Source: Schistosoma haematobium (taxonomy: Eukaryota > Platyhelminthes > Trematoda > Strigeidida > Schistosomatidae). From it: a stretch of 64,000 bases of DNA. The number at the start of each line of letters is the position of its first letter. The first letter of the stretch is position 1. Under the pieces are notes generated by a model that worked only from the letters and a program-made list of their open reading frames with translations, made no database searches and was not told where the DNA came from. A program made the translations under genes and the position numbers. Where the stretch lies: the NCBI RefSeq assembly GCF_000699445.3, contig NC_067202.1, positions 16,277,644 through 16,341,643 on the forward strand, read 5' to 3'. This document shows positions 4,204 to 41,736 of this stretch, piece by piece.

Positions 4204-4820
4204 TAAAGTAGAACTGTCTTGACATTCGTATTGAACATTCTGACCTTGGTGTTGGTTGACAGTTGCTTTAAATTCCAGATGTTCCTCAGTCGTAAATATG
4301 CTGCTCTTGCTTTACCGATCCGCGCCTTCACATCTGCATCAGATCCACCCTGTTCATCAATGATGCTGCCCAAATACGTAAAGGTTTTTACATCTTCCAA
4401 ATCTTCTCCGTCAATTGTGATTGGATTGGTGCTTGCTGTGTTGTATCGGAGAATCTTACTTTTCCCTTTGTGTATATTGAGATCTACTGCTGCTGCTACA
4501 CTGGTCGTCTTCTCCTGCATTTGTTATTGCGTTTGGGATAGAAGGGCCAGATCATCTGCGAAGTCTAGATCAACCAACTGCATCCTAGATGTCCACTGTA
4601 TCCCGTGTTTTCCTTCAGACGTTGACGTCTTCATGATCCAGTCGATCACCAGGAGAAAGAGAAATGGTGAGAGTAAGCAACCTTGCCTAACACCGGTCTT
4701 CACTTCGATCAACTTTGTCAACTGTCCTCCATGCACGATTTTGCAATGTAATCCATCATATGAGTTCTGTATGATATTGACTATCTTCTGAGGCACGCCG
4801 TAGTGTCGAAGAAGTTTCAT
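4203..4820 (-). pseudogene. RTE-A reverse transcriptase core, broken
   Basis: Two adjacent frames cover RT motifs: [20 protein letters not shown] and the catalytic [12 protein letters not shown] box (4524-4820), then the thumb-like [15 protein letters not shown] region (4203-4520). The frame breaks at about 4522. The upstream joint to the 4970-6280 frame is also broken by a one-base shift at the start ([10 protein letters not shown]), shared with the copy at 38723. Confidence 0.8.
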
Positions 4821-4969
4821 AGTGTTGTTCTGTCCACGCTATCAAATGCCTTTTCGTAGTCAATGAAGTTGATGTAGAGTGATGAATTCCATTCAATTGA
4901 TTGTTCCACAATGATCCGTAGAGTTGCGATTTGGTCTGTACACGATCTATCCTTACGGAATCCTGCCTG

Positions 4970-6280
4970 TCAATTTCGAAGTTGGGCGTCTACGCAGTCC
5001 TTCATCCTGTTTAACAATACCCTGTTGAAGACTTTTCCCGGTATTGAGAGAAGAGTGATGCCCCTGTAGTTATCACAGTTGCTGAGATCGCTTTTCTTCG
5101 GTATTTTGATCAGAAGTCCTTTCCAGTCTTTTGGTACTTGTTCCTCATCCCAAATCTTATTGAAGAGAATGTGGAGTATCCTTGCAGTTACCGCTACGTC
5201 TGCTTTCAGTGCTTCTGCTGGAATGTTGTCTGGTCCTGTTGCTTTGCCACTCTTGATTTGTCTGATGGCCATGCTGATTTCTTCAATTGTTGGTGGGCCA
5301 ACATCGATTGGGAGGTCCGTAGGTGCTGCTTCGATGTTGGGTGGTTTCAGTGGAGCTGGTCGATTCAAGAGTTCTTTGAAGTGTTCTACCCACCTGTTTT
5401 GTTGCTCTTCAATGTTGATGATTACCTCGCCTTCCTTGCTTTTCACTAGTCGTTCTCGTTTGCGGCGATTTCCAGAGAGTTTCTTTGTCGTGTCATACAG
5501 TTGTCTCATGTTTCCTTCTCTTGCAGCCTTTTCCGCCGTCGTTGCTGAATCTTCCGCATATTTACGTTTGTCGGTTCTGATGCTCTTCTTCACTTGTTCG
5601 TTTACTTCTGTGTATTCAGCTTGTGCCTTGGCTTTTTCTGCTCTTGTTCGACTGGTATTGATTGCTGCCTTCTTGTTCCTCCTTTCTTGAATCTTATCCA
5701 GTGTATCAACAGTGATCCATTCCTTGTGATGGTGCTTCTTGTGATATGTTGAAGTGATTACCTCTTTGATCCCCTTCCAGTTGCTCTCCACAGTGGTTCC
5801 TTCTCCATTGAGTAGATCATGAAAGGCTTGGAACTTGTTGCTGAGGTCTATCTTGAATTTGTTGAGTTTGTTAGTATCCTGAAGAAAGGCCGTATTGAAC
5901 TTTTGTGATATTGTCTGCCCCGTTGTCCAGTGCTTCTTGAGTTTCAATTTCGTCTTGGCGACCAGCAAGTGATGATCTGATGCTATATCAGCTCCTCTCT
6001 TGTTTCTCACATCCTCTATAGTCCTCCTGAACGTTTTGTTGATGCAAACATGGTCGATTTGGTTTTGTGTAGAGTGATCCGGTGAAGTCCATGTGGTTTT
6101 GTGTATGCGTTTATGTGGGAATACGGTGCCGCCTATGACCAGTTTATTGAAGGCACATAGGTTTGCAAACCTCTCACCATTTTCGTTCCTTTCTCCCAGT
6201 CCGTGTCGTCCGATGATGTCTTCATATTCAATGTTGTCCGTTCCAACCTCGGCATTGAAATCTCCCATCAGAATGGTCAA
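4970..6280 (-). pseudogene. RTE-A endonuclease / reverse transcriptase, N-terminal part
   Basis: The frame begins inside the apurinic-type endonuclease (GDFNAEVGTD, the DHSTQNQIDHV block, then ASDHHLLVAKT). It continues through the linker into the first RT motifs (GKATGPDNIPAEALK, NCDNYRGITLLSIPGKV). It ends at an in-frame TGA after VDAQLRN. The longer copy at 39916 stops at the same codon. The N-terminal third of the endonuclease is missing because of 5' truncation. Confidence 0.85.
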
Positions 6281-6285
6281 GTCGT

Positions 6286-6310
6286 ACTATAATTCAAATG
6301 ATTTGGAACA
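6286..6310 (+). repeat. 5' LTR of gypsy element, right part
   Basis: ACTATAATTCAAATGATTTG and the following bases to GGAACA match the end of the LTR at 10256-10280. It is directly followed by TTATATTGGCGTCGCG, whose TGGCG could be the start of a tRNA primer-binding site. The tRNA was not identified. Confidence 0.65.
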
Positions 6311-6338
6311 TTATATTGGCGTCGCGATAGAGCCTTCG

Positions 6339-8180
6339 ATGGAAAATTTAGATATTCATTTAACTTCGGAAGCTTTTGAGGATTATTTGGAAAGGTTCGA
6401 AATCTGGAGCATGACTAAGAAAGATGTTACAGATAATAAAATTGTGTCACATTTCCTGACATTCATTGAGGGAAAAGCGTACAGCTTAGTAAAAATTTTG
6501 GCATATCCAGAAAGACCTATCTCACTTCCTTATGCAACTCTTAAAGAGCTATTATTAAATCATGTAAAGTGCACCAGTTTCGAATGCCGTGACAGGGCGA
6601 AATTTCATAAGATGGTTCGTCAAAATGACCAAAAAGTTCAGGAATTCATCCTTGAATTGCAGAAACAAGCTGCCAAGTGTAATTTCGGTGATCAACTTCA
6701 TGTGCATCTGAGAGATCGACTAATTGCAGGAATTAACATACCGAGTTTGGAAAGAGAACTGTTAAGAATGCCAAACTGTTCCTTTCAAGATGCTAGAACT
6801 GCGTGTATTAACTACGAAGCAGTAAATGAACTTGATATCCAGTCGATGAAGATTTCCAATACTTTGCTTAGTCGTCATGATGAACTACAATCTCAGGGTC
6901 AATCAAACTTGCGTTCATTTAACAGTGATTCCTATTCTCGTGTAAATATGAAAGGTGTTTCAACGAGGAATTACAAAGCAAGTCACAAAGGTGAGATAAA
7001 GTTTGGTAAATGTTTATCATGTGGAAAGTTTCATGCTCGCAATTCATGTGTATTTCGTAATGCTAAATGTTTTAAATGTGGTAAGGTAGGACACATTCAG
7101 TCAGTATGCAAAGCTACTGTCCATTTTGCTTCGAGCTGTACTAAATCTTGTAATTTAAATCTCAATAATTTGGATGTTCCTAGTGATCATTTATCTTTGC
7201 CTACCATTTCGAAAGGTAATGCTCATATTCAAAAGCGATTATATTCATCGCTTGGTTCATTTCATGATTTTATTGTGGACACAAGCAGTATAGAGTCCAT
7301 TATTTCATTCAAGAACTTGAAAGCTTTAGATCCTAACGTTGTTGTACGACCCACTGAAGTATCAATACTGGGGATTACTGGACACAGACTGCCCATACGA
7401 GGATGTTGTGAATTACTAATCAGAGATGATAATTCTTCATACATACCTTGTGAATTTTTAGTTAGCGAAACAGGACTGTCAATACTGCGTCTAAGGAATT
7501 TGAAAAGGCTTAGAGTGGAGTCGTCTTTCCTAGTTTCTAAAGAAAATTCTGATGCTGTACTTAAAGATTTGATAGCTATGTGTGCTAAGTGCAGTGGAGG
7601 TATGGAAATTCAGCCTATAAAACTTCAAGTACAGGGTGATCCAGTCTTTCTTAAAAGACAAATAATTCCTTATGGTCTTCGAGAAGTAGTACAGAAGACA
7701 TTAAACGACTTGTGTGTGAAAGGCATAATTGAACCGATACAGTCTTCAGCATGGGGCAACCCTGTTGTTACGCCACTGAAGTCGGACGGCAAGACCCCTA
7801 GAATTTGTGGTGACTATAGATTAACTCTGAATTCCCGTTTGTTGAAGCAAACGTGCACGACGGTAGAAGCTGAAGATATTCTAAATCGACTTCATGGTTC
7901 TAAAGTGTTCTCGGAAGTTGACCTAAAAGATGCTTATCTTCAAATTCCTTTAGATGAATCTTCATCTATTTTGACGACAATTAACACTCCTTTTGGTCTG
8001 TTTATATACAGCTTCCCTCCATGTGGTCTAAGTTGTTCTCCAGCCATATTTCAGGAAGTCATAAATGAGGTAGTTAGTGATCTTGAAGGTGCTGAAGTTT
8101 ATCAAGATGATATCATTGTTCATGGTTCCAATAAGGTAGTTCATGACCAGAGACATTGCTTTATTACGTCGTTTAATTGA
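6339..8180 (+). pseudogene. Gypsy gag-protease-RT polyprotein, first segment
   Basis: I place the start at ATG 6339 (MENLDIHLTSEAF), just after the LTR; an earlier ATG in the frame belongs to the RTE insertion. Gag is followed by two CCHC-type knuckles at about 7010-7095 (CLSCGKFHARNSC and CFKCGKVGHIQSVC). A protease-like block follows (FIVDTSSIES), with Ser in place of the usual Gly of D-T/S-G. RT then begins (GIIEPIQSSAWGNPVV, FSEVDLKDAYLQIPLD) and reaches the catalytic YQDDIIVHG at about 8100-8126. The frame is lost at about 8143 by a one-base shift. Gag and pol share one frame with no stop between them. Confidence 0.85.
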
Positions 8181-9141
8181 GAAGAAAATTACAATGAATC
8201 CAAATAAGTGTTCATTTCGTGTATCTAGTTCTGAATGTCTTGGATACCTAGTTGATGGTAATGGTTTTAGACCAGATATGAAACGACTAGCTCCACTGAC
8301 TAATGCACTGTCTCCGAAAAATCTTACAGAATTACGTTCACTAGTGGGTGCTCTTCAATACTATTCCCGTTTAATTCCTAATTTTTCTTGTCGTGCAAAT
8401 TGTTTATTTAATATTTTAACATCCAATTCATTCAAATGGAGTGAGGAACAAGAGTCATGCTTACGAAGTCTGCTGAAGTTTCTTCAAAGTGATGCTGTTC
8501 TTCGAACGTACTCCTCTAATGTACATTCTGTGCTTATTACTGATGCATCACCTGTGGGAATTGGTGCAGTTTTGGAACAGGAAGGTAGACCAGTTATTTG
8601 TGCTTCACGCAAACTTACTGTTACTGAACAAGGTTATTCACAGACTCAGCGAGAAGTATTAGCTGTGTTTTGGGCTGTTAAAAGACTTCATAAATATTTA
8701 TTCGGAAAGAAATTCACTATTGTTACTGATCATGAAGCTTTAAAGTTTATTTATCATCCCGAAAAATCCTTAGCACGTTCCTCAGCAGCTATGGTTCAGC
8801 GATGGAGTATTGCTTTGAGTGCATATGACTATACGGTTCAGCACAGAAGTGCCAAACAGATTCAACATGTTGATTACATTTCTCGACAGTCATTACAAGA
8901 TAAACCTATTAATACTTCGGATTGTTTGTTAGTGCAACCTTTACCAGTGAGACGTTCAGATCTCATTAGAGAAACTCGTAGATATTTTGGATGTATACTC
9001 AGTGCTATGAGGAAAGGTTGGAATGCTAATTTGAAACGTAGATTTCCTATCTATTTTTCAAAGCGGTATGAGCTATCCACTACTCCTGTTGGTATTTTGT
9101 GTTTAAATGGTCGTGTTGTCATCCCTCCCTCATTGCGCTAA
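8143..9141 (+). pseudogene. Gypsy RT end and RNase H
   Basis: It continues from the frameshift (RDIALLRRLIEKKITMNPNK) with the RT connection (LGYLVDGNGFRPD). The RNase H domain follows: TDASPVGIGAVL, QTQREVLAVFWAVKRLHKYL, TDHEALKF. Before the stop at 9139-9141 it also reaches the integrase linker. The reading frame resumes after the TAA. Confidence 0.85.
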
Positions 9142-10124
9142 CCTGTTCTTGAAGATCTTCATAGTGGTCATTTAGGTTTTGGGAAAATGAAGTCATTGGC
9201 AAGGCTTACATGTTGGTGAACAGAGATGAATGCAGACATATGTAGTACGGCATACAATTGTGATAAATGTAATCAGTTGAAAAATCAGCCTTCGAAGTGG
9301 ACGCTATGACCATTATCGTCCGAGGCCTGGCAGAGAATTCATGGTGACTATTGTGGTCCGTTTCTTGGTAAATACTCTGCACTAGTAGTTATCGATTCTT
9401 TTTCAAAGTGGCCTGAAGTTTTTTACACAGCTTCACCGAATTCTGGTTTCGCAATCCAAGCATTAAGAAAGGTGTTTAGTCGAGAATGGGTTCCTGTGGT
9501 GTTAGTGACTGATAATGGCTCTCATTTTGCTTCAGATGCAGTTACTGCCTGGTTGAATGGTATAGGTTGCAAACATCTGTTTACTGCTCCCAGACATCCG
9601 TGTTCTAGTGGTCAGGCAGAAATGTTTGTCAGGACATTAAAGACTGCTATTGATTCTATAGCCGCCTAAACATTTAATGAGCTGGAGAGGGGAGTAGATA
9701 CCTTTCTATCGCAATATAGAAATAAAAGACTTTCGGTGACAAAGGAGACTCCAGCGAAGCTATTGAAAGGAAGGATTCTTCAGTCGAATATGAGATGTTT
9801 GGAGTCTGCAGAAGTTACATACTATCGAGGAAATGATCTTCGACCATCTACGGGTATTGTTCTGAAGGATGTCGGAAAATCGATAGTGCGAATTCTAGAC
9901 ATTAATGACTTAAGTACACACAGTCGACATGTTGATCAAATACAATTTCAGGAACCAGGTGAGTCAGTTTCAATTCCGGTTGTTAATTCTAATACTAATG
10001 AGTGCATTCTAGAAAATATAGAGTTATACAATACAATGTCGAACAGACTCAGGATGAATTTGAGAAGAAGACGTACGATTTATTACAAACACCTAGACTC
10101 CAATTTAAGCTGTGGCGGATGTAG
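9142..10124 (+). pseudogene. Gypsy integrase, nonsense-interrupted
   Basis: After the TAA at 9139 the same frame shows an HHCC-like zinc region (HSGHLGFGKMKSLARLTCW to CDKCNQLK) broken by TGA near 9219 and again near 9307. The DDE core follows: GDYCGPF, VTDNGSHFASDA, and the Glu in SSGQAEMFVRTLK. TAA at 9667 breaks it again before the C-terminal domain (9736-10131, LRPSTGIVLKDVG, SRHVDQIQF). The DDE residues survive but the protein cannot be made intact. Confidence 0.8.
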
Positions 10125-10280
10125 TGTTTGAACGAACTAATGATAACATTGTACTTGTTGAATGCTCGATTTCGAATTCTAAATACAATACATTCGTTCG
10201 TGTTTGTGTCGTACTTCTTGATTCAGTTGCGTTATTTTGAGGATTTTGAGTTCGTACTATAATTCAAATAATTCGAAACA
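10125..10280 (+). repeat. Shared middle LTR (156 bp)
   Basis: It starts TGTTTGAACGAACTAATG and ends ATTCGAAACA. It matches the split LTR at 3447/6286 and a third LTR at 12093. It serves as the 3' LTR of the first element and the 5' LTR of the decayed second one. Confidence 0.75.
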
Positions 10281-17700: not shown

Positions 17701-20700
17701 TTTCGTTTTTCGTGAGGTTTTTGGAATCGTTTTCTGACAGTATCTGAATATTTAATGGGCTTAACCATATCATTCGGTCACATGTATACAAGACGTAGGA
17801 TTTCAGTTGGTCATGATCAACATAGGGCCAAATATAAATATGTTTCAACTCAAGCTGCTGTACGACGTTAACGCATCAAAATCAAATTTGTCAATAAGCT
17901 TGGTCTTTACATATCTTCAATCAAATTAACATAAAAGTTTCTCATGTACTAAGCTCTCAAAACTGGTTATGGTAATACATATACACATAAACCAAATTTT
18001 GCATTGATGGCAATATACATAAAAGATCTCTGGTATTAATTTTATGAATTTCCAACTTTTCAAGTAGTTTTTTGCTGGATTAAATTCTCTATTTTTGAGT
18101 AAAATCCACTCCTGGTATATCCTGTATAGCTAACTATATTGTAGAGTAAAGGTTTATGATCTAATTTTCTTTTCAAGGACCTCCAGGAGAACCCTTCCAC
18201 GGTGTGTGCAACTTGAAAGTAATAACCACCTTTATACCTCTAACAACACTCAAGACTGCGTGATTATTGCCAGCCCCCAAAAGTTTTACTAGAGATTCTG
18301 CACTTTATCGATGTGTCTGATGACACCAAACTCCATTTCCTATTCGTTTACTCATGCATATATTTCATAGTATCTTAAATTCAACAAACATTTTAAACCT
18401 TTAAATCTCATTAATCCACTTTTCAAAACTGAATTGACCAGCATAGTCTAACCGCTTCACTTTTGAATATTAACGGCGGAAAGAAAGCAAGCTTTTGTAA
18501 TGCATAATTCCACTTAGATTGCTATAATAATATTCCTTTTCACACTAGATATTTTCTCACTTTGATCACTCTTTAGCTCAACCTGTAATTCGCTCGAGAT
18601 TTGGGGCTGTTCGTGGTCACGAAGGCAATCCATTATCTGTTCTCTGTGAAGTTGATGGCTTCCCAGAACCAAATCAAGTTGTTTGGAGACGTGTAATTGA
18701 AAATGAAGATGATTCGACTAAGAATAGGCTAGTTTCTGTTAGCAATGTGAGTTTTATTTATAAAGAGGAGATAGAAACTATTCTTATCACTTTCCAATAC
18801 TTAGATTTTACTGAGGTAAAAAGTAAGTTAGATTATACTCTTTTATCTTCAATTCTCTAAATTTGGCTTGATGATGTTAATCATTAACACATTTGTGTTT
18901 AGTTGTGGAGTTACGAGGAGTTAATTTAAAAGTGCTATGACTTCATACCACCAGAAACACAATTTTATTCTACTTTTACTGACTCACTGAGTTACTTTTT
19001 AATTCATTCATGTAGACATTACTATAATATTCAGAAAATGAACCTTCTCTTACTTTGTAATTGTGTACTCTTTTTGAAGAATGAATTTTCTCCATGAACG
19101 AGATAGTTTCAGTTTATGTTAGTGGTAGTGTAGTGAAGAAATAGTCAGGTTGGGAAGACCAGTTTATTGTTTAACACAAAATTACGGAATGTCTTCGTAA
19201 AACATGAAAACTATACATTAAGAACTTCGTTTGCACATCTATCATTAGTTGTCTCTTACAAACCTTATGGCTCCTCCATTCCTATTGCTATTACAATTAC
19301 TCTCTGTTTACATTCCTGTTCTCTTCAATTCGATCTTCTCAACCTTCTGCTGCCAGGCGTTCCACTTCTAATTGGTGTTACATACTACTTATGTCGACAG
19401 ATAAGTAGCATACACCTCATTAATAATGTCTGTGACTCACTTGTTTCACGTAATTAAGTATCAATCGTTTAGTCATACAGAATCGAATTCCACACATTTA
19501 GCAAAATATTTCTAGGTATTAATGGCTTTCACGAGTGATTGACAAAGTGTTCAGGGAGTGCACAAACCTCTGGGTACTTACTAAACTACATGATAAAATT
19601 CATCGATAAATTTGATGAAGTGACAAAATATGCTTAATAATAGAATATAATAAACATCCAAATCTTGTATTTCAATATTCAGTCATTTATTTCACCGCTT
19701 TATTGTATTCCTCCTTTTTGAACTATATCCTGTATTCATTTATATTGGTTGTTCGAATCTTCCCATTAATGTTTAAGACTGCTAATAATCAGTCTCTTTC
19801 GGCGTATGTGCATCCTGTGCTGTTTGCTTCGATATTCTTTTAAGTCACAAGCATTATAAGCAGATATGGATAGTGGCTTAGAAGGGGGGAATACAAGAGG
19901 GGCGTTTCGTCCTATTTGGGACTCGTCAACAATTCTGAACATCTATATCTTGAAACTCCATACCATTATTAGCAATCAACTAATATTTACAATCAGCGTA
20001 GTGTTGCAGAGATTTTTGAGTTATTATTGAAGTCATGAACCGATCGATGTTAGATCACCATCGAAAATATGGAAGCATTGGATAGCCGTTAAAAATATAT
20101 GTATATTTGTCCTCAGTTTCTCATTTTATTATTTTTATACTTTTGTTAATTTAAAGAAAAGTTTTTCCATTTGGTGAAGAAGTGAAATGAGAATCATAAT
20201 GAATAAAGATTTGTAGAATAGTTAGAATTTTGTTGTCGTTCAATGCAAACTATCTTTGTTGTTATCATTGTGGTTTGTAAAGTTTAGTAATTTTTATACT
20301 TCGTTGGAATGTTATTTTATTCTTCAGGCTATGTTCAAACCGCATGAGAGCACTAAAGATGCTATTATGGAATGGACTGATGCTTCAGATGCTACTGGAT
20401 TTTATATGTGCACAGCAACATCAACATTAGGATCAGACAGTTTATTGTTGGAAGTTCGTATCAAAAGTAAGGATTGAATGATTTATATATTTTCAATATA
20501 CAAATATTTAGGTGTTTATCATCATACCATTATTTTCACCATTATCAGTACGCTCAGTCAGTCAGTCAGTCAGCTACAACGTGAGACCAGGCACATATGT
20601 GCATCGGCTCAAGTTTCCATACCTCTTTAGCACAGCAAGATGAACACCGAACTCATAGAAGTGGTTAATTCAGTGGTGGTAATATATAAAAGAAAGATTG

Positions 20701-23700
20701 CATATAACGATATAGTACAAGAAGAAAAAATTGGTTCGTAGAAAGAAAGATATGAAGCGATTTTAATCTCATCGTTTAAGGGAAGACAGGGATTGTATAC
20801 ACCGACGCCATTGTGATCGATTCTGAGCCATGTCACCAAGAGTCTCCAACCATTGGTTACGATAGTCACGCGGACCCCAACCAAGTAATCTGCATCTCCC
20901 AACATGGCTCAGACTAGAAGTTAGTGACTTCAAGCACTGATGCCACGTTTTGGTTTGGCCACCCCTAACTACCAACCATTCCCAACACTAGCCAGCATTG
21001 CATTCGTGGTAATCGGTATTCAGGCATACGCAACACGGGTAAGCATTTACTGCACGGCCATTTTTGTATTTTTTTTTTGAGTGAAATTTTTTCATCTCTT
21101 TTGAAAAAATTTTTCATCCCCATCTTCCAATAATTTTCATTCTGTTTCGTCCAATCAAATAACTAGTTTTAAGTTCGTTATAAGTGGTCGTTTATTTCTT
21201 AAAATCGATATAAAATATGAGGATTTGACGACAAAGCACATTTTCTTACAATTATGGACGGTAATAACATGCAAAGTACGAGCTCCGTCGTTCCTCACGT
21301 TGTCACAGAAACCGATAACCTATTCTTGAGCACATTGTATCTCGTAGCGTTCCAATCTCTTGAAGAGTTGAATAGCGCCATTAGAACGTATGAAAGAGCC
21401 ACGTACAGCCATTATGTGGTGAGAGATTCTCATTTACATAGAGATCGGAAGTCGTATATTAAATTCGTATGTTGGAGAAATGGCCGTAGAACATCTAGCG
21501 GTTCCTCACAACCGAGTAGACGAACGAGGTAATTTGATCAGTGTTATTATAATTTTTCATAAAGGACTTTCGTAAACACTCAATGTCCTTCCTTCATCTT
21601 TTGTAAGTTCATTGAAGGTTACTGGACTGTTGTTCGTGGGAATGTGCATCACAATCACGAGTGCAATTCCCTAAGGTACCAAAGTAATTATTGGATGCGC
21701 AGGTTAACGGTGGTGGAATTCGAAACAGTGAGACCACTTTTGATATCTGGGACAGCAGCATTCAATATTATACACTTTGTTTACCAACCTTATAGAAAGT
21801 GTATAGATCCTCAAGATGTTTTTAATATGCGCCACAAAGTGTTCTCACAAGCCAACCTTCCTGGTAAGCAATGTGCTTATCTAAATTGTCAACGTTAGGT
21901 GATTACTCCCAATTGAAAGATCACATCATGTCGCTTGGTGGCCTCTGTGAATACCACTTAGATGGAGATAACTGTCTGTTGTATTTCTTCTTCACAACAG
22001 CAGATCAAATGAGTTTATCAAGTCGATTTTTTGATGTTGTTGGTTTTGATGGGATCTACAAAACCAATAAGCAAAATTTATATTTGTATCAGGTTGTAGC
22101 ACTTGATATGAATTTCATGGCAATACCTGTTTGTATTGCATTCATTAGTTCCGAAACATCTAGTTTAATTGCTCATTTCCTGTCGTTCTTCCGCCGATCA
22201 ACTAGCAACCGAGAGGTGGTAGGCATTGTAACAGATGATTCACCTGCAATAGCTGCTGCCATTATGCAGGTGTATCCCGATTCCCACCACATTTTGTGTC
22301 ACGTACACATAATTCGTAATGTGTTAGGGAGGGTAAGTTTTTCGTTGCTTAACATGAAGCCATTAATCGTCATTGTAGAGGCTACGAGCAGAAACTGTAC
22401 AACTTTTCTTCCGTCTGATGTTCACTAGAAATGTCGAAAGGTAAATTAAAATATGCATTACAGTCTTTTGTAGTTTCCATAGTTATCTTCCATTAATTGA
22501 AGCATCAGACGGAAATTTTTACCGATATGTGAGAGATCACTTGTTGCCTAAAAGCACAAGTGGTCAAATGCTTTTCGACCCGCAGCGATGCTCTTGGGAC
22601 AAAGTAATACGAATTTCGTTGAGATAACTCATCGGATTCTTAAATTACATAAGCTGAACAGAAGAATACCCGTGTTGAGATCAATATTCAGTGTGCTTCT
22701 TCGCACTGGATATTGGATCGATGCGCGAATGCAGAAGTATTATTGTGATTGTCGTAATAAAACAATAATCGGTCGGCAGCCAGTAATATGTCGTCTTCGG
22801 GAAAGACTTACACCAGCTGCATGTCAATTACTGAAGCGGCATTTGCGCACTCCTATCACTGAGGTTGTAATGTCCGTGGACTTGTCAACGGCTGTTGATG
22901 GTACAGGCACTTATACAGTCTGCAGTAATCCACTCAATTGTTCATGTGCTTTTTACATTGAAAACCGAATACCTTGTCGTCATATTTTAGCCTACTGCAT
23001 ACGCAGTAATAATGAAGTGAATACTCAGATAATTAGTGATAGATGGTTGCAATCGGACAGGTACATTACCAGTGTTGCGATTGACAATACCTCCCAGTTC
23101 AAATAAGACAGACAAGTGTAAGAAGATCGCTGTATGCCTTACTTAGGCGTATGTTCGAAGAGCAATGTACAATGGTGTATAATAATGCATATCAACTTGT
23201 TTACGGTAGGATACCTCCAGCACCGTCCACCTTACCTGCTGTTACAGAGTCTCAGATAGAAACCTCTACTTCCACTAATGTTACAATGCCGTCGATCCAT
23301 CAGACAGCAGTTACCAGCTATCAACATAACGTTGATATGGATGAAACGTTAAGTAATGACGAGGAAGAAATTGTTTCGATGAATTCAGAGGAGTTTGCTG
23401 AACTAGATGACGACAATGACGAAAACGCGCATGACAACAGACTTTGTGATATTTGCAATCTTGCGCAACCGCCACATGAAACGTTTCATCCATATCAACG
23501 TTATGTTGATAGCTGGTAACTGCTGTCTGATGGATCGACGGCATTGTAACATTAGTGGAAGTAGAGGTTTCTATCTGAGACTCTGTAACAGCAGGTAAGG
23601 TGGACGGTGCTGGAGGTATCCTACCGTAAACAAGTTGATATGCATTATTATACACCATTGTACATTGCTCTTCGAACATACGCCTAAGTAAGGCATACAG

Positions 23701-26700
23701 CGATCTTCTTACACTTGTCTGTCTTATTTGAACTGGGAGGTATTGTCAATCGCAACACTGGTAATGTACCTGTCCGATTGCAACCATCTATCACTAATTA
23801 TCTGAGTATTCACTTCATTATTACTGCGTATGCAGTAGGCTAAAATATGACGACAAGGTATTCGGTTTTCAATGTAAAAAGCACATGAACAATTGAGTGG
23901 ATTACTGCAGACTGTATAAGTGCCTGTACCATCAACAGCCGTTGACAAGTCCACGGACATTACAACCTCAGTGATAGGAGTGCGCAAATGCCGCTTCAGT
24001 AATTGACATGCAGCTGGTGTAAGTCTTTCCCGAAGACGACATATTACTGGCTGCCGACCGATTATTGTTTTATTACGACAATCACAATAATACTTCTGCA
24101 TTCGCGCATCGATCCAATATCCAGTGCGAAGAAGCACACTGAATATTGATCTCAACACGGGTATTCTTCTGTTCAGCTTATGTAATTTAAGAATCCGATG
24201 AGTTATCTCAACGAAATTCGTATTACTTTGTCCCAAGAGCATCGCTGCGGGTCGAAAAGCATTTGACCACTTGTGCTTTTAGGCAACAAGTGATCTCTCA
24301 CATATCGGTAAAAATTTCCGTCTGATGCTTCAATTAATGGAAGATAACTATGGAAACTACAAAAGACTGTAATGCATATTTTAATTTACCTTTCGACATT
24401 TCTAGTGAACATCAGACGGAAGAAAAGTTGTACAGTTTCTGCTCGTAGCCTCTACAATGACGATTAATGGCTTCATGTTAAGCAACGAAAAACTTACCCT
24501 CCCTAACACATTACGAATTATGTGTACGCGACACAAAATGTGGTGGGAATCGGGATACACCTGCATAATGGCAGCAGCTATTGCAGGTGAATCATCTGTT
24601 ACAATGCCTACCACCTCTCGGTTGCTAGTTGATCGGCGGAAGAACGACAGGAAATGAGCAATTAAACTAGATGTTTCGGAACTAATGAATGCAATACAAA
24701 CAGGTATTGCCATGAAATTCATATCAAGTGCTACAACCTGATACAAATATAAATTTTGCTTATTGGTTTTGTAGATCCCATCAAAACCAACAACATCAAA
24801 AATCGACTTGATAAACTCATTTGATCTGCTGTTGTGAAGAAGAAATACAACAGACAGTTATCTCCATCTAAGTGGTATTCACAGAGGCCACCAAGCGACA
24901 TGATGTGATCTTTCAATTGGGAGTAATCACCTAACGTTGACAATTTAGATAAGCACATTGCTTACCAGGAAGGTTGGCTTGTGAGAACACTTTGTGGCGC
25001 ATATTAAAAACATCTTGAGGATCTATACACTTTCTATAAGGTTGGTAAACAAAGTGTATAATATTGAATGCTGCTGTCCCAGATATCAAAAGTGGTCTCA
25101 CTGTTTCGAATTCCACCACCGTTAACCTGCGCATCCAATAATTACTTTGGTACCTTAGGGAATTGCACTCGTGATTGTGATGCACATTCCCACGAACAAC
25201 AGTCCAGTAACCTTCAATGAACTTACAAAAGATGAAGGAAGGACATTGAGTGTTTACGAAAGTCCTTTATGAAAAATTATAATAACACTGATCAAATTAC
25301 CTCGTTCGTCTACTCGGTTGTGAGGAACCGCTAGATGTTCTACGGCCATTTCTCCAACATACGAATTTAATATACGACTTCCGATCTCTATGTAAATGAG
25401 AATCTCTCACCACATAATGGCTGTACGTGGCTCTTTCATACGTTCTAATGGCGCTATTCAACTCTTCAAGAGATTGGAACGCTACGAGATACAATGTGCT
25501 CAAGAATAGGTTATCGGTTTCTGTGACAACGTGAGGAACGACGGAGCTCGTACTTTGCATGTTATTACCGTCCATAATTGTAAGAAAATGTGCTTTGTCG
25601 TCAAATCCTCATATTTTATATCGATTTTAAGAAATAAACGACCACTTATAACGAACTTAAAACTAGTTATTTGATTGGACGAAACAGAATGAAAATTATT
25701 GGAAGATGGGGATGAAAAATTTTTTCAAAAGAGATGAAAAAATTTCACTCAAAAAAATACAAAAATGGCCGTGCAGTAAATGTTTACCCACAACACGTGA
25801 CCCAACGATCTCAGTCGATGAAGATTTACCATCATTCCCTAATACCTTGTGTCTATGCTCACTATTACTTACCCGATGATGCGAGCAATATTTCTAAGGC
25901 ATCTGTTGTCAAATGCTAGTAGCTTACGAATATCTTCGACCATTATTAGCCATGTTGCGCTGCCGTAAAGTAAAACAGAACGAACTGCCGCGCAGTATAC
26001 TCGTCTCTTAATTAATAGATGGATATCTCGCCTTCGGCATAGGTGACGTAAGTTGGCAAAAGCTAAACGAGATTTTCAAATCGGTGCTGAGATTTCGTCA
26101 GACACCAACCCATTAGGGCTGATCAGACTTCCAAGATAAGTGAAGTTGTCAACGCGTTCGACTACTTCACTCCCTATCCTTAGTTCAGGTGTTAACGCAG
26201 ACCAGTCCTGCATTTCGAGGGAGAGTAGCGCATTCTAAACTTTCTGGTATTGTTGCTCAGTGCTACCAGAAGACTTTGCATGTTGTCAGTCTTCACCAAA
26301 CAGGACTATGTCATCTGCGTATTCTAAGTCGATAAGTAGACCTCCTGGTAGGAGACCAATGCCCCAGAATTCAGTCGACGAGAGCGTTATTTCCATCAGT
26401 ATGTCTATGATAAATTTAAACAAAAATGGAGAAAGTGGACAGCCTTGACGAACAACACTTGAGGTAACCGTTTGCCATAAGCTCTGATTAGACTAGTAGT
26501 GTTCGAGTACAGAGCCCTCACAAGATTCATGTACTTCTGAGGTACGTCTTTCAATGACAGACACTGCCAAAAACATCTCGGTCTACCGTGTCAAATGCTA
26601 TTTTCAATTCAGGAAAAACTAACATTGCTGCACACCGATAAGCATGTGTGTGTTCTAAAACCTGACGAATGATGAATATGTGGTCGATGCAGCCACGATC

Positions 26701-29700
26701 AGGTCTGAAGCCAGCGCGATTTTCTCGTGTTTGCAGTTCACGAGTCTTAGTTAGGCGTCCGATAATTGTTGATGCTAGTATTTTAGATTCTAGGTTAGTC
26801 AAACTAATCCCTCTGTCAGTCAGTCAGCTACAACGTAGGACCAGGCACATATGTGCATCGGTCCAGGTTGCCATACCGCATCAGCACAACAAGATGAACA
26901 CCGGATTCATAGCAGTGGTTAGGTCAAAGGTGGTAATATATAAGAGAAAGATTGCATACAGAGATATAGTACAAGAAGAAAAAATTGGTTCGTAGAAAGA
27001 AAGATATGAAGCGATTTTAATCTCATCGTTTAAGGGAAGACAGGGATTGTATACACCGACGCCATTGTGATCGATTCTGAGCCATGTCACCAAGAGTCTC
27101 CAACCATTGGTTACGATAGTCACGCGGACCCCAACCAAGTAATCTGCATCTCCCAACATGGCTCAGACTAGAAGTTAGTGACTTCAAGCACTGATGCCAC
27201 GTTTTGGTTTGGCCACCCCTAACTTTCTTCCAACCATCTCCAATACCGGATAGCATTGCACGTCGTGGTAATCGGTATTCAGGCATACGTAACACGTGGC
27301 CCAACCATCTCAGTCGATGAAGATTCATAACCTCATCAACTGATTTACCATCATTCCCTAATATCCTGCGTCTAACCTCACTATTACTTACCCGGTGATC
27401 CCAGCAGACGCGAGCAATATTTCTAAGGCATCTGTGGTCAAATACTAATAGCTTACGAGTGTCTTCTACTCTTAATGGCCATGTTTCGCTGCCGTAAAGT
27501 AAAACAGAACGAACTGCCGGGCAGTATACTCGTCCTTTTATTGATAGACGGATATCTCGCCTTCGGCATAGGTGGCGCAAGTTGGCAAAAGCCAATCAAG
27601 CTTTTCAAATCCGTGCTGAGATTTCGTCCGATATCAACCCATTAGGGCTGATCAGACTTCCAAGATAAGTGAAGTTGTCAACGCGTTCGATCACTTCACT
27701 CCCTATCCTTAGTTCAGGTGTTAACGCAGACCAGTCCTGAAGCAACAACTTGTATTTCGAGGGAGAGAAGCGCATTCCAAACATCCTGGCATTGTTGCTC
27801 AGTGCTACCAGAAGACTCTGCATTTTGTCAGCGTCTTCACCAAACAGGACTATGTCATCTGCGTATTCTAAGTCGATAAGTGGACCTCCTGGTAGGAGAT
27901 CAATACCCGAGAATTCAGTCGACGAGAAAGTTATTTCCATCAGTAGATCTATGATGAAGTTAAACAAAAATGGAGAAAGTGGACAGCCTTGACGGACACC
28001 ACTTGAGGTTGCAAAAGTAGATGACAGTTCGCCATAAGCTCTGACTCGACTAGTAGTGTTCGAGTAAAGAGTCTTCACAAGGTTTATGTACTTCTGGGGT
28101 ACGCCTTTCAATGACAGACACTGCCACAGAATCTCGCGGTCTACCGAGTCAAATGCTGCTTTTAAGTCGAGAAAGACCACCATTGTCGGACGCCGATAAG
28201 TATGCCTGTGTTCTAGAATCTGACGAATGGTGAATATGTGGTCGATGCAGCCACGTCCAGGTCTAAAGCCAGCTTGGTTCTCTCGTGTTTGCAGTTCACG
28301 AGTCTTAGTTAGGCGTCTGATAATTATCGAGGCTAGTATTTTAGATATTATATTAGTTAAACTAATCCCTCTGTGGTTGTCACAGTATGATTTTGACCCT
28401 TTCTTATATATTGGGACGATAAGTGATTGTGACCAGTTAGATGGAATAACGTCTAACTCCCAGATCTTAGCTAAAATATTAGTCAACCTAATCGCTAAAA
28501 TTGGTCCACCATCCTTAAAGACCTCTGGAGCCAGTCCATCTGGACCAGCTGCCCTTCCTCGTTTCAGATTAACTATAGCCTTTTGAACTTCAGCAAGAGT
28601 TGGGGGACCTACTTCAATGTTCCATTCACACTGTCTGGGAATGGAGGGTAGTTGTAGAGTAGCTGAAGGCCAGCTGAACTGTTCTCTGAAATGTTCCGCC
28701 CATCGTTCTAAACGCCTGGACTGGTAGCAGATGAGAGTATCGTCTTTTTCCGATATAATCTCACTTACACTTGACTTATTAATTCCAGTTTCTTTTATTA
28801 GTCTGTAAAGCTGTCTTGTGTTCCCTATAGTCGCCGCCTTTTCCATCTCTTTTGCTTTCGTTGCCCACCACTGCTCACGGTCGTTTCTTAGACTTTTTCT
28901 TAACCTAGATCTGATTTGTTGTCGCTCTTCATCATGTTCGGAACCTGATGGGACGAGTTTGCGAGAATCCATCAGTGTGATAGACTTTGAAGAAATCCAC
29001 TGGTTCTTTGAAACTCTGTGGTTTAAGTCGCTAATAGATGTCACTGCTGCTTCCACAGCTGCTTGTATTTCATTCCAAGCAACATCTGGGTCAGCCTCGT
29101 CTTCAGAACTACCTAATCGTGACCTCAGTTGTTCCTGGAACCTACTTTTGGTTTTCTCACTACCCAATTCAGTTCTAATGGGTCTTTTTACTGTGGCTTT
29201 TTTGCGTCCAGTGAGGCGCAAGCAGATGCGTGCCCGTATTAGGGCGTGGTCGGAGTCCAAGCAGGTACTCCAGAATGAGCGACAATCTTGTACCGACCCT
29301 CTCCAACGATGACTGATGGCAATATGGTCTAGTTGAGTCCATCGTTGGTTTGGTGCAGGGGGTCTCCACGTTAGACGATGTCTCTCCTTATGCTTAAAAT
29401 TTGTGTTTGCTAAAAATAAGCGATTGTCTGAGCACAGTTGCAGCAGACGGTCACCATTATCTGTTCGCTGTGCCGGAATGCTAAAATGTCCACCTAAATG
29501 CCTTTCTGTTTGGTTTAAACTACCTATCTGAGCATTAAAGTCACCCCCTACGAGTACTATGTCTGAGCGTTTAGCTTTCTGAAGAAGTTCGGACAGCTTT
29601 CTGTAAAATTCATCTTTCACATCATCTGAGCTGCAGTCAGTGGGAGCGTAGGCAGAAACGACGAAAAGGCAACGACGTGTGTCCCTATCCTTCCGAGTTC

Positions 29701-32700
29701 TTACGGAGCCGTTTAGCCGAACAGCACATAGACGACTGTTGACGGGGATCCACTCTAGCAGTGCTTGTTCCGCCCTCATGCTTAGTGCTATGCCTACACC
29801 TGCTAGTCCACGAGAACTGGCCATCGGGTCACCAGATACACGTAGGATGTATCTCGTTGGCTCTCCGTTTTGCCGAGGTGAGGTCAAGTGAATGACCACA
29901 CTGGAATCCTGTATGCGTGTTTCGGAGACACAACATACATCAATGGAAAGAGACTCTAGGGTTTTAGCCAAGGAAGCCTGCTGACCGATTTGACATAGAG
30001 TGCGTACGTTGAAAGCTCCAATGTGTAGTTTGGAGCGAGGTTTCAGTAGACCTGGGACAGAGTTTTGAGCACTAGAATCGTTGGCTATGGTGACACTTGA
30101 GGAGGAAGCCGAAGGAGGAAGTTTAGGTTTGAAAGTCGATGTAGGAGGAATAATAGGAATTGAAGAGGAAGTTTGATTATGAATACAATGGTCTTGGGTG
30201 CTGTTAGAGGTATGAGGGCGGTTATCACTTCCCGGTTGCCCACACCGTGGAAGGGTTCTTCTGGAGGTACCTGAAAAGGAAATTGGATTAGAGGCGGTCT
30301 CAGTGACCTGAGAGCGTGACCGCAGTGCCCAAGGGACAACTGCTTGAGGCCGGTCGCGCACGGCCTTTTTGTGGAAGGTTTTTGACGTGTTAGCTCCGTT
30401 CTTCAAAGGGCCTTACCGCCGGAGACGGAAATCCGTGAGGTAAGGTGAGGTGTGACATTTTTAGGGTCGACCTTTTCTAACCCCACCCCTCGTTGTGGGA
30501 AGGCAGCATCGCTGTTATGCTGGTTGTCCGAGGGAAACACCTTACTGTTGTCACACCTCTGTACAGTCAGCAGTACGATTTCGCCTTCGGACCTTGGGTT
30601 TGTTGCTTTTAGTCTTACCGCTCTTCAACCGACCTGTCTGACATGGTAGGACCTTGAGGAACGTTTGTTCCAGCCAATATAGCTCGGTTGCTTCATCACG
30701 ATAGGCTAGCCCGACCACCACGTCAAGGTAGCAACAACGGTCGGGAATCCCTCTGTGGTTATCACATGATGATTTTGACCCTCTCTTACATATTGGGACG
30801 ATGGGTGATTGTGGCCATTCAGATGGAATTACGTCCAACTCCCAGATTATAGTCAAAATATTAGTCAACCTAATATCTAAAATTGGACCACTATACTTAA
30901 AAACTACTGGAGCTGATCCATTTGAACCAGCTGCTCTTCCTGGTTTCAGATTAGCTATAGCCTTTTGGACTTCAGCTACAGTTGTGGGACCTACTTCAAT
31001 GTTCCATTCAGGCCGTTTGGGAATGGTGGGTAGTTGTAGAGTAGCTGAAGGCCAGCTGAACTGCTGCTTAAAATGTTCCACCCATCGTTCTAAACGTCTG
31101 GACTGGGAGCAGTTAAGTGTCGTCTTTTTTATGAGATAGTCTCACTTACACTTGATCATGTTATTCATTTCAATAGTTTGATGAGAGTAAAATGAATCAT
31201 AGGTGTTTCAACGTGTCAAGACAGTTAAGTATAATACCGGAGTTGATAATATATCGATGTCGGTGGTTTTTTGTACTATGTGTTGTGATAAGTGGCTACA
31301 AGAAACAAGTTTTTAAGTGAATCCATCTGCGTGTGTATACTTTTAGTCAGCTCTTCGATTTTTGTGTATAATTAGAACTAACACATTAAACTACCGAAGG
31401 AAAATGTGACAAAGTGCGAGTACTTCTACAAATTTCAATAACGAGGAATAGCAATTTATACTTTAACCGAAGAATGTTCATACAATTCAACTAACGAAGT
31501 GAGATATTCTTCAATTTGAGGTTGTGGAGATTGTTTAAATTCATTGAATTTATGAACTAGCTTCGAGACTTCATTCTTGGATTTCTAATGAGAAGCCGTA
31601 ACCAATGGAGTACAGCCGTGTCGGGTGTGAAGCATTTATTCACCGAAGACAATGGAAGATGATCGCGCGACATCATGAATTAGTTGATGTTAGACATTGA
31701 CACCATTGGATACTGGTTCATTGGTCTAAAGTTTGAGCGTTCACTCAAGACCGAATGTTGTGGTTTGGATTGACACGTGTAAGATGGTGGATGCGCGTTG
31801 TTGAGTGGTTTGATATTCTGACAAAACGGTCGGCCAGTGCATTCAGGTTTTCAATGTTGGTTTAACATTGATCGGTTCATGATTTCACTAAAATGAGTTA
31901 TACATGTTTGTATTAAGCACCATTCAAAAAAATCTCCATTTGATACTTCCCTTCACAAGACAATGATAAATCGAGATATACTCAAAGACATAAATAGATA
32001 ATTTTAACGATAGGATTTCCACTATAATCAAATATATTTCTCTTCTGACATAATATCACATATTTCTCAGAATTATAACAAACATGTTTCACTAAATAAA
32101 AATTTTTGAAATAAATTACCAATTTCTATACAGATTATACCTTAGTCAGTCAGTCAGTTAGTAACAACGTAGAACTTCGTACGTACGTATATCAGTTCAA
32201 GTTGCCATACCACATTAGCACAGAGATGGTGGTAGAGGTAGTAAAATTATAAACAGTAATCCGAAAGATATTTTCCAAGGAGTATAATACAGTGAAATAA
32301 ATTTGGAAAGAGAAATAAAGGGACATGAAGAATTCAGAAGATTAGAATTTGGGAGAACACAGACTGGATGCACTTGCGCCATTGCAAATGATTTTGAGCC
32401 ATGTCATTCAAGGTCTCTGACCATCGGTTGCTATCATCTCGCGGTCCCGAACTACGTAGTCTACACCTACCAACATGATTCAGTCCACTTGTCAGTAACT
32501 CCATGGATTTGTGCCATGTTTTGGTCTGGCCGCCCCTAGCTTTCTTCCAACCTACTCCTATACCATTGAGTATCGCACGTCGAGGCAGTCGGTCGTTGGG
32601 CATACGTAACACGTGTCCCAGCCATCTCAACTGATGAAGTTTCACCACTTCATCAATCGAGATGATTATACCTTAAATTGTATAGGAAGCACTTGAAATA

Positions 32701-38722: not shown

Positions 38723-39766
38723 TTACTTACGCCTGTTACTCCCAATGGAGCATAGGCCGCTGACCAACATTCTCCAACCCACTCTGTCCTGGGCCTTCTT
38801 TTCTAGTTCCATCCAATTCTTGTTCATTTTTCTCATGTCTATTTCCATTTCTCGGCGTAATGTGTTCTTTGGTCTTCCTCTTTTCCTTTGGCCTTCAGGA
38901 TTCCATGTGAGGGCTTGTCTTGTGACGCAGTTGGGTGCTTTCCTCAATGTGTGTCCTATCCACTTCCAGCGCTTCTTCCTGATTTCTTCCTCCGCTGGGA
39001 TCTGGTTTGTTCTCTCCCACAGTACGTTGTTGCTAATAGTGTCCGGGCAACGGATCCGAAGTATTTTGCGTAGACAATTGTTGATAAACACCTGTATTTT
39101 CTGGATGATGGCTTTCGTAGTTCTCCAGGTTTCTGCCCCATACAGTAGAACTGTCTTGACATTTGTATTGAAAATCCTGACCTTGGTGTTGGTTGACAGT
39201 TGCTTTGAATTCCAGATGTTCATCAGTTGTAAATATGCTGCTCTTGCTTTGCCGATCCGCGCCTTCACATCTGCATCAGATCCACCCTGTTCATCAATGA
39301 TGCTGCCCAGATATGTAAAGGTTTTTACATCTTCCAAATCTTCTCCGTCAATTGTGATTGGATTGGTGCATTCTGTGTTGTATGGGAGAATCCTGCTTTT
39401 CCCTTCGTGTATATTGAGACCTATTGCTGATGAGGCTGCTGCCGCACTGTTCGTCTTCTCCTGCATCTGTTGTTGCGTTTGGGATAGAAGAGCCAGATCA
39501 TCTGTGAAGTCTAGATCGTCCAACTGCATCTTAGATGTCCATTGTATCCCGCGCTTCCCTTCAGATGTTGACGTCTTCATGATCCAGTCGATCACCAGGA
39601 GAAAGAGAAAGGGTGAGAGTAAGCAACCTTGCCTAACACCGGTCTTCACTTTGAACGACTTTGTCAACTGTCCTCCATGCACGATTTTGCACTGTAATCC
39701 ATCATATGAGTTCTGTATGATATTGACTATCTTCTGAGGCACGCCGTAGTGTCGAAGAAGTTTCAT
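38723..39766 (-). pseudogene. RTE-A RT core and C-terminus
   Basis: [20 protein letters not shown]; a catalytic box [12 protein letters not shown], where copy 1 has FADD (an Ala-to-Thr change); [30 protein letters not shown]; and the C-terminal [15 protein letters not shown] and [17 protein letters not shown]. The frame is intact except at its junction to the upstream half. Confidence 0.87.
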
Positions 39767-39915
39767 AGTGTTGTTCTGTCCACGCTATCAAATGCCTTTT
39801 CGTAGTCAATGAAGTTGATGTAGAGTGATGAATTCCATTCAATTGATTGTTCCACAATGATCCGTAGAGTTGCGATTTGGTCTGTACACGATCTATCCTT
39901 ACGGAATCCTGCCTG

Positions 39916-41736
39916 TCAATTTCGAAGTTGGGCGTCTACGCAGTCCTTCATCCTGTTTAACAATACCCTGTTGAAGACTTTTCCCGGTATTGAGAGAAGA
40001 GTGATGCCCCTGTAGTTATCACAGTTGCTGAGATCGCTTTTCTTCGGTATTTTGATCAGAAGTCCTTTCCAGTCTTTTGGTACTTGTTCCTCATCCCAAA
40101 TCTTATTGAAGAGAATGTGGAGTATCCTTGCAGTTACCGCTACGTCTGCTTTCAGTGCCTCTGCTGGGATGTTGTCCGGTCCTGCTGCTTTTCCACTCTT
40201 GATTTGTCTGATGGCCATGCTGATTTCTTCAATTGTTGGTGGGCCAACATCGATTGGGAGGTCCGTGGGTGCTGCTTCGATGTTAGGTGGGTTCAATGGG
40301 GCCGGTCGATTCAAGAGTTCTTTGAAGTGTTCTACCCACCTGTTTTGTTGCTCTTCAATGTTGGTGATTACCTCGCCTTCCTTGCTTTTCACTGGTTGTT
40401 CTGGTTTGCGGCGATTTCCAGACAGTTTCTTTGTCGTGTCATACAGTTGTCTCATGTTTCCTTCTCTTGCAGCCTTTTCCGCCGTCATTGCTAGATCTTC
40501 CACATATTTACGTTTGTCGGTTCGGATGCTCCTCTTCACTTGTTTGTTTACTTCTGTGTATTCAGCTTGTGCCTTGGCTTTTTCTACTCTTGTTCGACTG
40601 GTATTGATTGCTGCCTTCTTGTTCCTCCTTTCTTGAATCTTATCCAGTGTATCAACAGTGATCCATTCCTTGTGATGGTGCTTGTTGTGACCCAGGACCT
40701 CATGACATGTTGAAGTGATTGCCTCTTTGATCCCCTTCCAGTTGCTCTCCACAGTGGTTCCTTCTCCATTGAGTAGATCATGAAAGGCCTGGAACTTGTT
40801 GCTGAGGTCTATCTTGAATTTGTTGAGTTTGTTAGTATCCTGAAGAAAGGCCGTATTGAACTTTTGTGATATTGTCTGCCCCATTGTCCAGTGCTTCTTG
40901 AGTTTCAATTTCATCTTGGCGACCAGTAAGTGATGATCTGATGCTATATCAGCTCCTCTCTTTGTTCTTACGTCCTCTATAGTCCTCCTGAACGTTTTGT
41001 TGATGCAAATATGGTCGATTTGGTTTTGTGTAGTATGATCCGGTGAAGTCCATGTGGTTTTGTGTATGCGTTTATATGGGAATATGGTGCCGCCTATGAC
41101 CAGTTTATTGAAGGCACATAGATTTGCAAATCTCTCACCATTTTCGTTTCTTTCTCCCAGTCCGTGTCGTCCCATAATGTCTTCATATCCAGTGTTGTCC
41201 GTTCCAACCTTGGCGTTGAAATCTCCCATCAGAATGGTCAGGTCCTTTGTTGGGCACTTCTCGATGATTGACTGCAGCCTATTGTAGAATTGATCTTTAG
41301 CGTCTTCATTGTAGTCGTTGGTAGGCGCATAGCATTGGATGATGTTCATTGAAATACCCTCTTTCTTTGTTTTGAACGAGGCTTTGATGATCCTTGGTCC
41401 ATGAGATTCCCATCCTATAAGCGCATTTTGCGCTTGTTTGGACAGCATCAATGCAACTCCTTGTGTATGTGGTGCATTTTCTTCTTCATGGCCGGAGTAT
41501 AACAGGAGCTCTCCTGTAGTTAGTCGTTGTTGTCCAACTTGTGTCCAATGTGTTTCACTGATCCCAAGTACCTCTAGGTTGTATCTTCTCATTTCTGCAG
41601 CAATTTGGAAGGCTCTCCCGGTGTCCCACATTGTACGAACATTCCATGTACCTAAATAAATGGTTGCTCTGGTTGTCAGAAGGGGCATCGGCCTCGTAAC
41701 TTCCGAAGGGATTCGGCTTTCATCATGAGGCGTCAT
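39916..41736 (-). pseudogene. RTE-A endonuclease and RT N-terminal half
   Basis: Complete apurinic-type endonuclease: LGTWNVRTMWDTGRAFQ, SETHWTQVG, GDFNAKVGTD, TQNQIDHI, ASDHHLLVAK. A linker and RT motifs (AAGPDNIPAEALK, NCDNYRGITLLS) follow. The frame closes at a TGA after VDAQLRN, where other family members would read on into QAGFRKD. Downstream, a one-base shift at about 39767 moves the frame to the 38723-39766 ORF. Confidence 0.87.

Follow-up and report, generated by a model that had tools for sequence, protein, structure and literature searches.

A palindromic, two-headed Mutator-like element in a retrotransposon of Schistosoma haematobium and its relatives across the genome

Mu killer (Muk), a derivative of the maize MuDR element, bears two TIRA termini and two partial, inverted transposase genes, the middle and the other end being gone; in the available portion of its description it is a single plant locus with arms of about 1.3 kb and a centre that resisted sequencing (PMC3440606). 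Here we describe a palindromic Mutator-like element (MULE) of Schistosoma haematobium, which shares with Mu killer the inverted copies of a transposase gene and the presence of one terminus on both sides. The element lies in a stretch of 64,000 nucleotides of contig NC_067202.1 (assembly GCF_000699445.3, positions 16,277,644 to 16,341,643), hereafter called the window. In comparison with Mu killer, the window element has 2.3-kb arms, a readable centre with microhomology, a 9-bp target-site duplication and many two-headed relatives in an animal genome, two-headed meaning that the same terminal sequence, the head, stands at both ends. The element, which interrupts an RTE-type retrotransposon, probably derives from a schistosome MULE that encodes a SWIM finger and has become palindromic and two-headed; this degree of confidence applies to the identity of the element and of its group.

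Galileo of Drosophila, a foldback-like element of the P superfamily, has very variable terminal inverted repeats that are 98-100% alike within each copy, and it has been proposed that the repeat lengthens inward when one end serves as the template for repairing its partner (PMC3573991), which resembles the in-place route considered below. Galileo differs in its superfamily and its 7-bp duplications, and the accessible part of that paper does not mention an extension covering the transposase gene (PMC3573991). The schistosome Curupira MULEs are listed with a SWIM finger and 9-bp duplications and without terminal inverted repeats, no palindromic form being mentioned in the accessible parts of the two sources (PMC6446971, PMC8293314). 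In the window element a SWIM match (E 1.3e-5) and a 9-bp duplication were observed, and its two ends are the same for 2.3 kb; a kinship with Curupira, for which a single ORF is a further criterion, may be considered on the level of the published description. Tm1 (Mutator/Foldback) of root-knot nematodes likewise combines an animal MULE-type transposase with foldback-like ends and 9-bp duplications, but there each end is a composite array built from short motifs, the two ends of an element being 93% alike on average, and the available portion of its description includes no coding mirror copies (PMC3169594). Muta1 of Aedes aegypti, likewise a MULE from an animal, makes duplications of 8-9 bp and has been assigned to the type 2 foldbacks; it differs in having 145-bp terminal inverted repeats made of short repeats and a single transposase gene, as far as the accessible text states (PMC5225508). 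A literature search whose coverage left out most subscription journals found no description of the palindromic form reported here.

The window palindrome occupies 21038-25788, and 4622 of its 4751 bp sit in the arms, so that inverted repeats make up most of the element, as in foldback elements. Self-comparison of the window aligned 21037-23350 with the reverse complement of 23480-25789 at 99.74% identity over 2314 columns and revealed no second inverted pair of comparable size among pairs of at least 100 columns with more than 75% identity. Between the arms there are two substitutions, at 21043 G / 25783 A and at 22301 A / 24529 G, plus two differences in T-run length (T10/T7 near 21069; T6/T5 near 22027), and the divergence by substitutions only is 2/2310 sites. 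At both substituted sites, the base of the left arm is a state absent from the aligned relatives. The initial annotation, made from the sequence alone, had described a Mutator-like palindrome at 21037..25789 with near-identical mirrored arms, the same terminus at both ends, differences in two homopolymer lengths and a few bases, and a second half replaced by a mirror image of the first. This observation is confirmed except for the exact ends, which were corrected with the help of relatives that fix where the head starts. The first bases of the element are GGTAAGC at 21038 and its last bases are GTTTACC at 25788, while the terminus of the relatives starts with GGTAAAC.

The element is enclosed by a 9-bp target-site duplication, CGCAACACG / CACAACACG, equal at 8/9 positions, which lies within the 8-11 bp characteristic of the MULE superfamily. 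At the local base composition, the chance of agreement at 8/9 or better is about 1.7e-4, a figure for a single boundary, other boundaries having been examined first. The 7-bp near-duplication noted earlier was rightly recognized as a duplication; with the start of the head placed from relatives, its length is 9 bp, one position being mismatched. Flanks 20558-21037 and 25823-26816 align in the same order to an unoccupied paralogue at 26812-28374, which bears CGTAACACG at 27288-27296 as the counterpart of the duplication and shows a 20-bp length difference near the insertion site. The paralogue adjoins an open reading frame (ORF) at 27608-30412 with reverse transcriptase (RVT_1) and endonuclease domains. 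Because both flanks match one unoccupied paralogue in order, they belong to one site, and the earlier view that the host RTE sequence runs on across the element holds.

These boundaries bear on the suspicion that the mirror arm is false, a missed-adapter or hairpin read having been built into the contig. Two of the four arm differences are homopolymer lengths, a frequent long-read error. However, a read artefact would also mirror the flank, whereas the flanks here are two sides of one target with the duplication outside; moreover, two substitutions separate the arms, with a left-arm state at each that is unseen in aligned relatives. Excluding the window, 13/25 of the two-headed elements described below have a duplication of the same 9-bp length at 8/9 or better, which also speaks against an artefact. 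We consider this explanation very unlikely.

The assignment to MULEs agrees with the initial annotation and follows from two Pfam matches in the left arm: the MULE transposase domain PF10551 (E 5.7e-20; residues 56-150 of ORF 21871-22425) and the SWIM zinc finger PF04434 (residues 126-146 of ORF 22555-23103). Four of the six left-arm pieces submitted to Pfam gave no match over the curated cut-off. The best named protein matches (11 proteins) are only 70% identical to the piece used as query. Judged by eye, with two exons joined, the gene seems to be interrupted by short introns. As assembled, its frame is broken at the same place in both arms, where ORFs overlap (Table 1), in line with the shared frameshift reported earlier; the right arm has one additional break at the T-run near 24802. 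The superfamily's transposase domain is present in an element whose transposase is incomplete as assembled, with a frame break in both arms and the C-terminus lost. On this reading of its sequence, the window element is a non-autonomous derivative. Because of the frame break and the lost C-terminus, it would have to be moved, if at all, through another copy.

Table 1. Coordinates of the window element, its coding features and its insertion site (positions within the window)
Feature	Position	Strand	Basis or remark
Host RTE-type retrotransposon, left of insertion	20558..21037	-	self-comparison
Target-site duplication, left copy CGCAACACG	21029..21037	+	
Left arm: head (terminus GGTAAGCATTTACTGCACGGCC) and most of the MULE transposase gene, putative short introns	21038..23350	+	
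MULE transposase domain PF10551, left arm	22036..22320	+	Pfam E 5.7e-20
Frame-break region, left arm (two ORFs overlap)	22552..22627	+	ORF list
SWIM zinc finger PF04434, left arm	22930..22992	+	Pfam E 1.3e-5
Centre, 129 bp	23351..23479	+	collinear with L009 and L010
Right arm: left arm inverted, same head at its end	23480..25788	-	
AAC, 3-bp microhomology at inversion junction	23480..23482		shared path of L010 and mirror arm
SWIM finger, mirror copy	23838..23900	-	position from symmetry
Frame-break region, right arm (ORFs overlap)	24203..24278	-	ORF list
MULE domain, mirror copy	24510..24794	-	position from symmetry
Target-site duplication, right copy CACAACACG	25789..25797	+	8/9
Host RTE-type retrotransposon, right of insertion	25798..26816	-	self-comparison
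Unoccupied paralogous target site CGTAACACG	27288..27296		

All genome-wide counts given here are lower bounds. A search of the genome with the arm gave 44 matches (best 39 of 379 candidates scored). Among the matches listed, loci L009 and L010 were the closest outside the window, with 2.8-3.5% substitutions (65-81 of ~2,300 sites) and about 96% identity. Both carry one head and extend beyond the window element's centre into a tail, the sequence of which L009, L010 and L022 have in common. In L010 the reading frame stays open through a Cys/His-rich C-terminus as far as a stop codon; the Pfam matches of this C-terminus, including PHD, were all below cut-off. Relative to L010, the window element is without C-terminus, stop codon and tail, so a MULE relative with the missing 3' part, which the initial annotation had proposed to look for, does exist. 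No convincing right end of L009, L010 or L022 was found when shared ends and repeats of the left-flank 9-mer were searched.

The window element is collinear with L010 up to 23482 and then switches to the mirror arm. Its two halves leave collinearity with the single-headed relatives at different points, the left half being about 130 bp longer, and the inversion junction is asymmetric, with the 3-bp microhomology AAC. Since the centre is collinear with L009 and L010, it represents an overhang of the left half and not foreign DNA. A 271-base query across the junction gave 46 matches (best 40 of 116 candidates scored), and only the window crosses the junction. The comparison with L009 and L010 bears on the notion that two separate truncated MULEs inserted in opposite orientation, one nested in or adjacent to the other. 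Nested insertions are known in the group, as in palindrome L033, which lies in the core of another two-headed element. The arms of the window element differ at only 2/2310 sites against the 65-81 that separate them from L009 and L010, and a single duplication encloses the entire element; two insertions are thus extremely improbable.

The 22-base head was searched across the genome at up to two mismatches and found at 87 places, while the reversed control gave 0. When the heads were sorted, 25 neighbour pairs within 10 kb faced outward and 0 faced inward; other copies with two identical ends, a prospect raised in the initial annotation, are therefore numerous. Same-strand neighbours numbered 11, of which 8/11 lie in two tandem arrays. 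These arrays (C2:86033588-86044499 and C6:8509086-8521116) hold five copies each in the same orientation, with periods of about 2.72 kb and 3.0 kb, and both incorporate a MULE end. Both flanks were read for 26 two-headed elements, namely the 25 pairs, window included, and the 66-bp core hosting L033. Flanking 9-mers agree at 8/9 or better in 14/26 and perfectly in 10/26. Among 650 cross-pairs of flanks taken as the null, 0 reached 8 and 3 reached 7 matching positions. Exact direct repeats of 6, 7, 8, 10, 11 or 12 bp were found in 0/26, and so the duplication length is 9. As about half of the many two-headed relatives have 9-bp duplications, two like ends make a competent substrate. The window element is a transposase-carrying member of a two-headed group and no isolated oddity.

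Transposase-bearing palindromes found in this subgroup number two, the window element and L011. The centre of L011 is unlike that of the window, its arms are 10/1980 sites apart, its left head is worn, and its right arm ends about 230 positions before the head, at a sequence break. Two further candidates were rejected: L012, whose second head falls within the 3' part of an older copy and whose ends are degraded, and L017, which is asymmetric and has no clear ends. L033 (C1:70640000-70647000), a 4.0-kb palindrome with a perfect 9-bp duplication, is inserted in a tiny two-headed element, about 66 bp long, around which a separate 9-bp duplication stands at 8/9. Inverted pairs at C1:61715188-61721119 and C2:47712208-47718345 are more distant relatives, 72-74% identical to the arm and several kb across. 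Sister-group palindrome L029, outside the 26, has arms of 1035 bp at 99.9% and, judged by eye, the ends TCAAATGGA / TCAGATGGA.

The sister MULE F2, 4.9 kb long and represented by L023, L026, L028 and a copy within L022, contrasts with the two-headed group in that its ends differ, GAATAATATTG... on one side and ...AATGTCAACC on the other; duplications of 9 bp were seen by eye in 4/8 copies showing both ends.

Of the outward head pairs, 13/25 span 4.26-4.36 kb, and for at least 10/13 of these the matches listed include inverted 3' pieces in each of the two orientations. The 3' part of L009 used as a query revealed many inverted pairs, with 82 matches (best 40 of 656 candidates scored). L032, L067 and L068 of this size class were read whole, and they were compared with L033 and L060 (4.9 kb) as five palindromes of one architecture. 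L067 and L068, 4302 bp each, show 0 substitutions between their own arms (~1,697 sites), differ from one another by 3-4 substitutions over ~1,698 sites and share the same non-palindromic centre in opposite orientation. As they are near-identical with perfect 9-bp duplications at both, these palindromes move as units. Of the earlier suggestion that the palindrome itself transposed or formed right at insertion, transposition as a palindrome is shown for smaller relatives and not for this copy. The arms of L033 differ at 2/1699 sites, compared with 165-170 of ~1,570 sites between L033 and the four related palindromes, which points to arms being kept alike inside an element or to palindromes being made anew. 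The centres of these four align with that of L033, in the case of L067/L068 at about 85%. L032 shows the same direction less strongly (10/1698 within, 22-29 of ~1,695 between).

A shorter arm comparison gave within-element values of 116/552 for L057, 34/545 for L058 and 11/543 for L059. These high values probably arise because the fixed-length pieces overran internal deletions; in self-alignment, L057-L059 are more than 99% alike for pieces longer than 60 bp, while 56-bp and 27-bp pieces of L057 are at 96-98%. L056, L057, L058 and L060 resemble versions of the 4.3-kb palindrome that have undergone deletion. In elements read whole, the second head measures about 80 bp in L055, 146 in L030, 258 in L052 and 521 in L059 and reaches the length of an entire arm at the other extreme, and the inner junctions vary among the two-headed elements. 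This variation in inner junctions and second-head lengths fits repeated events. L053 has 248 bp of head on one side, but a deletion on the opposite side limits its inverted pair to 93 bp. The short inverted pairs in L030, L053 and L055 are 90-96% alike, whereas the L052 pair and the long arms exceed 99%. L054, a more distant member, combines a perfect 24-bp end pair with an inner 103-bp pair at 92%.

The window palindrome could have arisen by repair in place, a step to which, taken by itself, we give about even chances. According to this model, a break or excision gap would arise in an element whose two ends are alike. The strand that copies one of them would continue into, or switch onto, the matching arm and copy inward, and the copied arm would be joined to the other copied end via microhomology. 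The like ends would let the repaired product keep exact termini and the target duplication, and later copying between the arms may hold them alike. The duplication differs at 1/9 positions compared with 2/2310 sites in the arms, and 0.008 mismatches would be expected in nine sites at the arm divergence. This hints that the arms were made or equalised after the insertion and leans toward the in-place route.

Alternatively, a chromosomal inverted duplication including the flanks could have formed first, by fold-back of a broken 3' end or template switching at a fork, after which transposase excised the part lying between the two heads and inserted it here with a 9-bp duplication. Template switching followed by excision and insertion corresponds to the FoSTeST model for Pack-TIRs, as presented in the available portion of that paper (PMC8277862), and two-headed palindromes do transpose (L067, L068 and the 9-bp duplications of the group). 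Inverted duplications including flank also exist in this genome: in L024, an F2 relative, about 620 bp of flank are mirrored and followed by a third copy in forward orientation, and in L052 at least 50 bp of flank are mirrored. Nevertheless, no donor palindrome with the window junction was found among the best 40 of 116 candidates scored, and the target duplication carries a mismatch although the arms are almost identical. We regard this order of events as possible but somewhat less than probable.

L024 (C2:51704000-51713999) has a 2.8-kb mirror copy, flank included, and is arranged like the duplication with inverted triplication that template switching yields. In L025 (C2:19216000-19225999), two long F2 stretches lie tail to tail, less than 40 bp apart, within a palindrome that reaches the end of the sequence read.

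Several observations weigh against a palindromic two-headed derivative repaired in place. No clear target duplication was found for 12/26 two-headed elements (L030, L032, L052, L053, L055, L056 and L060 and the loci at L036, L042, L044, L050 and L061), among them the whole-read palindromes L032, L056 and L060; L036 and L053, although classed here, agree at 7/9. No second head of L011 was found in 2.9 kb beyond its right arm. The repair model requires a like-ended parent, and L009 and L010, the nearest relatives with a transposase among the matches listed, show one head each. The argument for in-place formation from the duplication mismatch hangs on a single base, the step itself is not directly seen, and the window locus is known from one assembly alone. 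The inverted copies extending into flanks in L024 and L052 indicate that chromosomal inverted duplication without transposition occurs here too.

The loss from the window element of the stop codon and tail seen in L010 also has a possible functional side. Started in either head, a transcript would traverse the centre, enter the mirror arm and could fold back as a long hairpin. Such a transcript might feed a small interfering RNA (siRNA) pathway and silence relatives, which would explain why the palindrome persists. Mu killer has the same plan, its two TIRA ends, two copies of one MuDR end, flanking inverted pieces of the mudrA transposase gene, and it silences MuDR (PMC3440606, available portion). 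In the accessible part of a study of Schistosoma japonicum, Ago2 binds siRNAs that derive from transposable elements, and a Piwi homologue was not known (PMC3409120). On the other hand, the SjAgo2 siRNAs came mostly from long interspersed nuclear elements and long terminal repeat elements, with a smaller share from terminal inverted repeat elements and miniature inverted-repeat transposable elements (PMC3409120). Furthermore, the window junction had no second copy among the best 40 of 116 candidates scored, and in maize the hairpin model has been questioned in favour of antisense transcripts. These arise inside Mu killer, and the model proposed in the accessible text rests on them, with a long hairpin as a possible contributor (PMC3440606). 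By analogy with Mu killer, silencing by a hairpin may be suggested here, though we consider it doubtful. The broader picture, a two-headed MULE lineage in which a doubled terminus has taken the place of the usual unlike pair, the mirror form is the mobile one, the arms are re-copied from each other and so remain self-complementary, and the transposase-bearing palindromes act as hairpin silencers of the family in a genus reported without Piwi, is likewise unlikely in our estimation.

Elsewhere in the window, retrotransposon copies at 4204-6283 and 39141-41244 lie in direct orientation and are 94.8% identical over 2.1 kb, with further matching pieces adjacent. Long ORFs (700, 333 and 153 aa) at 6078-10131 look, as judged by eye, like a frame-broken gag-pol retroelement.

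The origin of long inverted repeats in foldback elements is an unsettled question. One genome here combines a readable junction with single-headed relatives, a paralogous site that is unoccupied, and two-headed relatives that form a graded series and bear 9-bp duplications, so that copying in place from one end can be compared with inverted duplication and subsequent transposition as models of this origin. Near-identical 4.3-kb palindromes could promote chromosome rearrangement and trouble assemblies. The palindromes holding a transposase gene would be natural candidates for hairpin RNA in an animal reported to be without Piwi.

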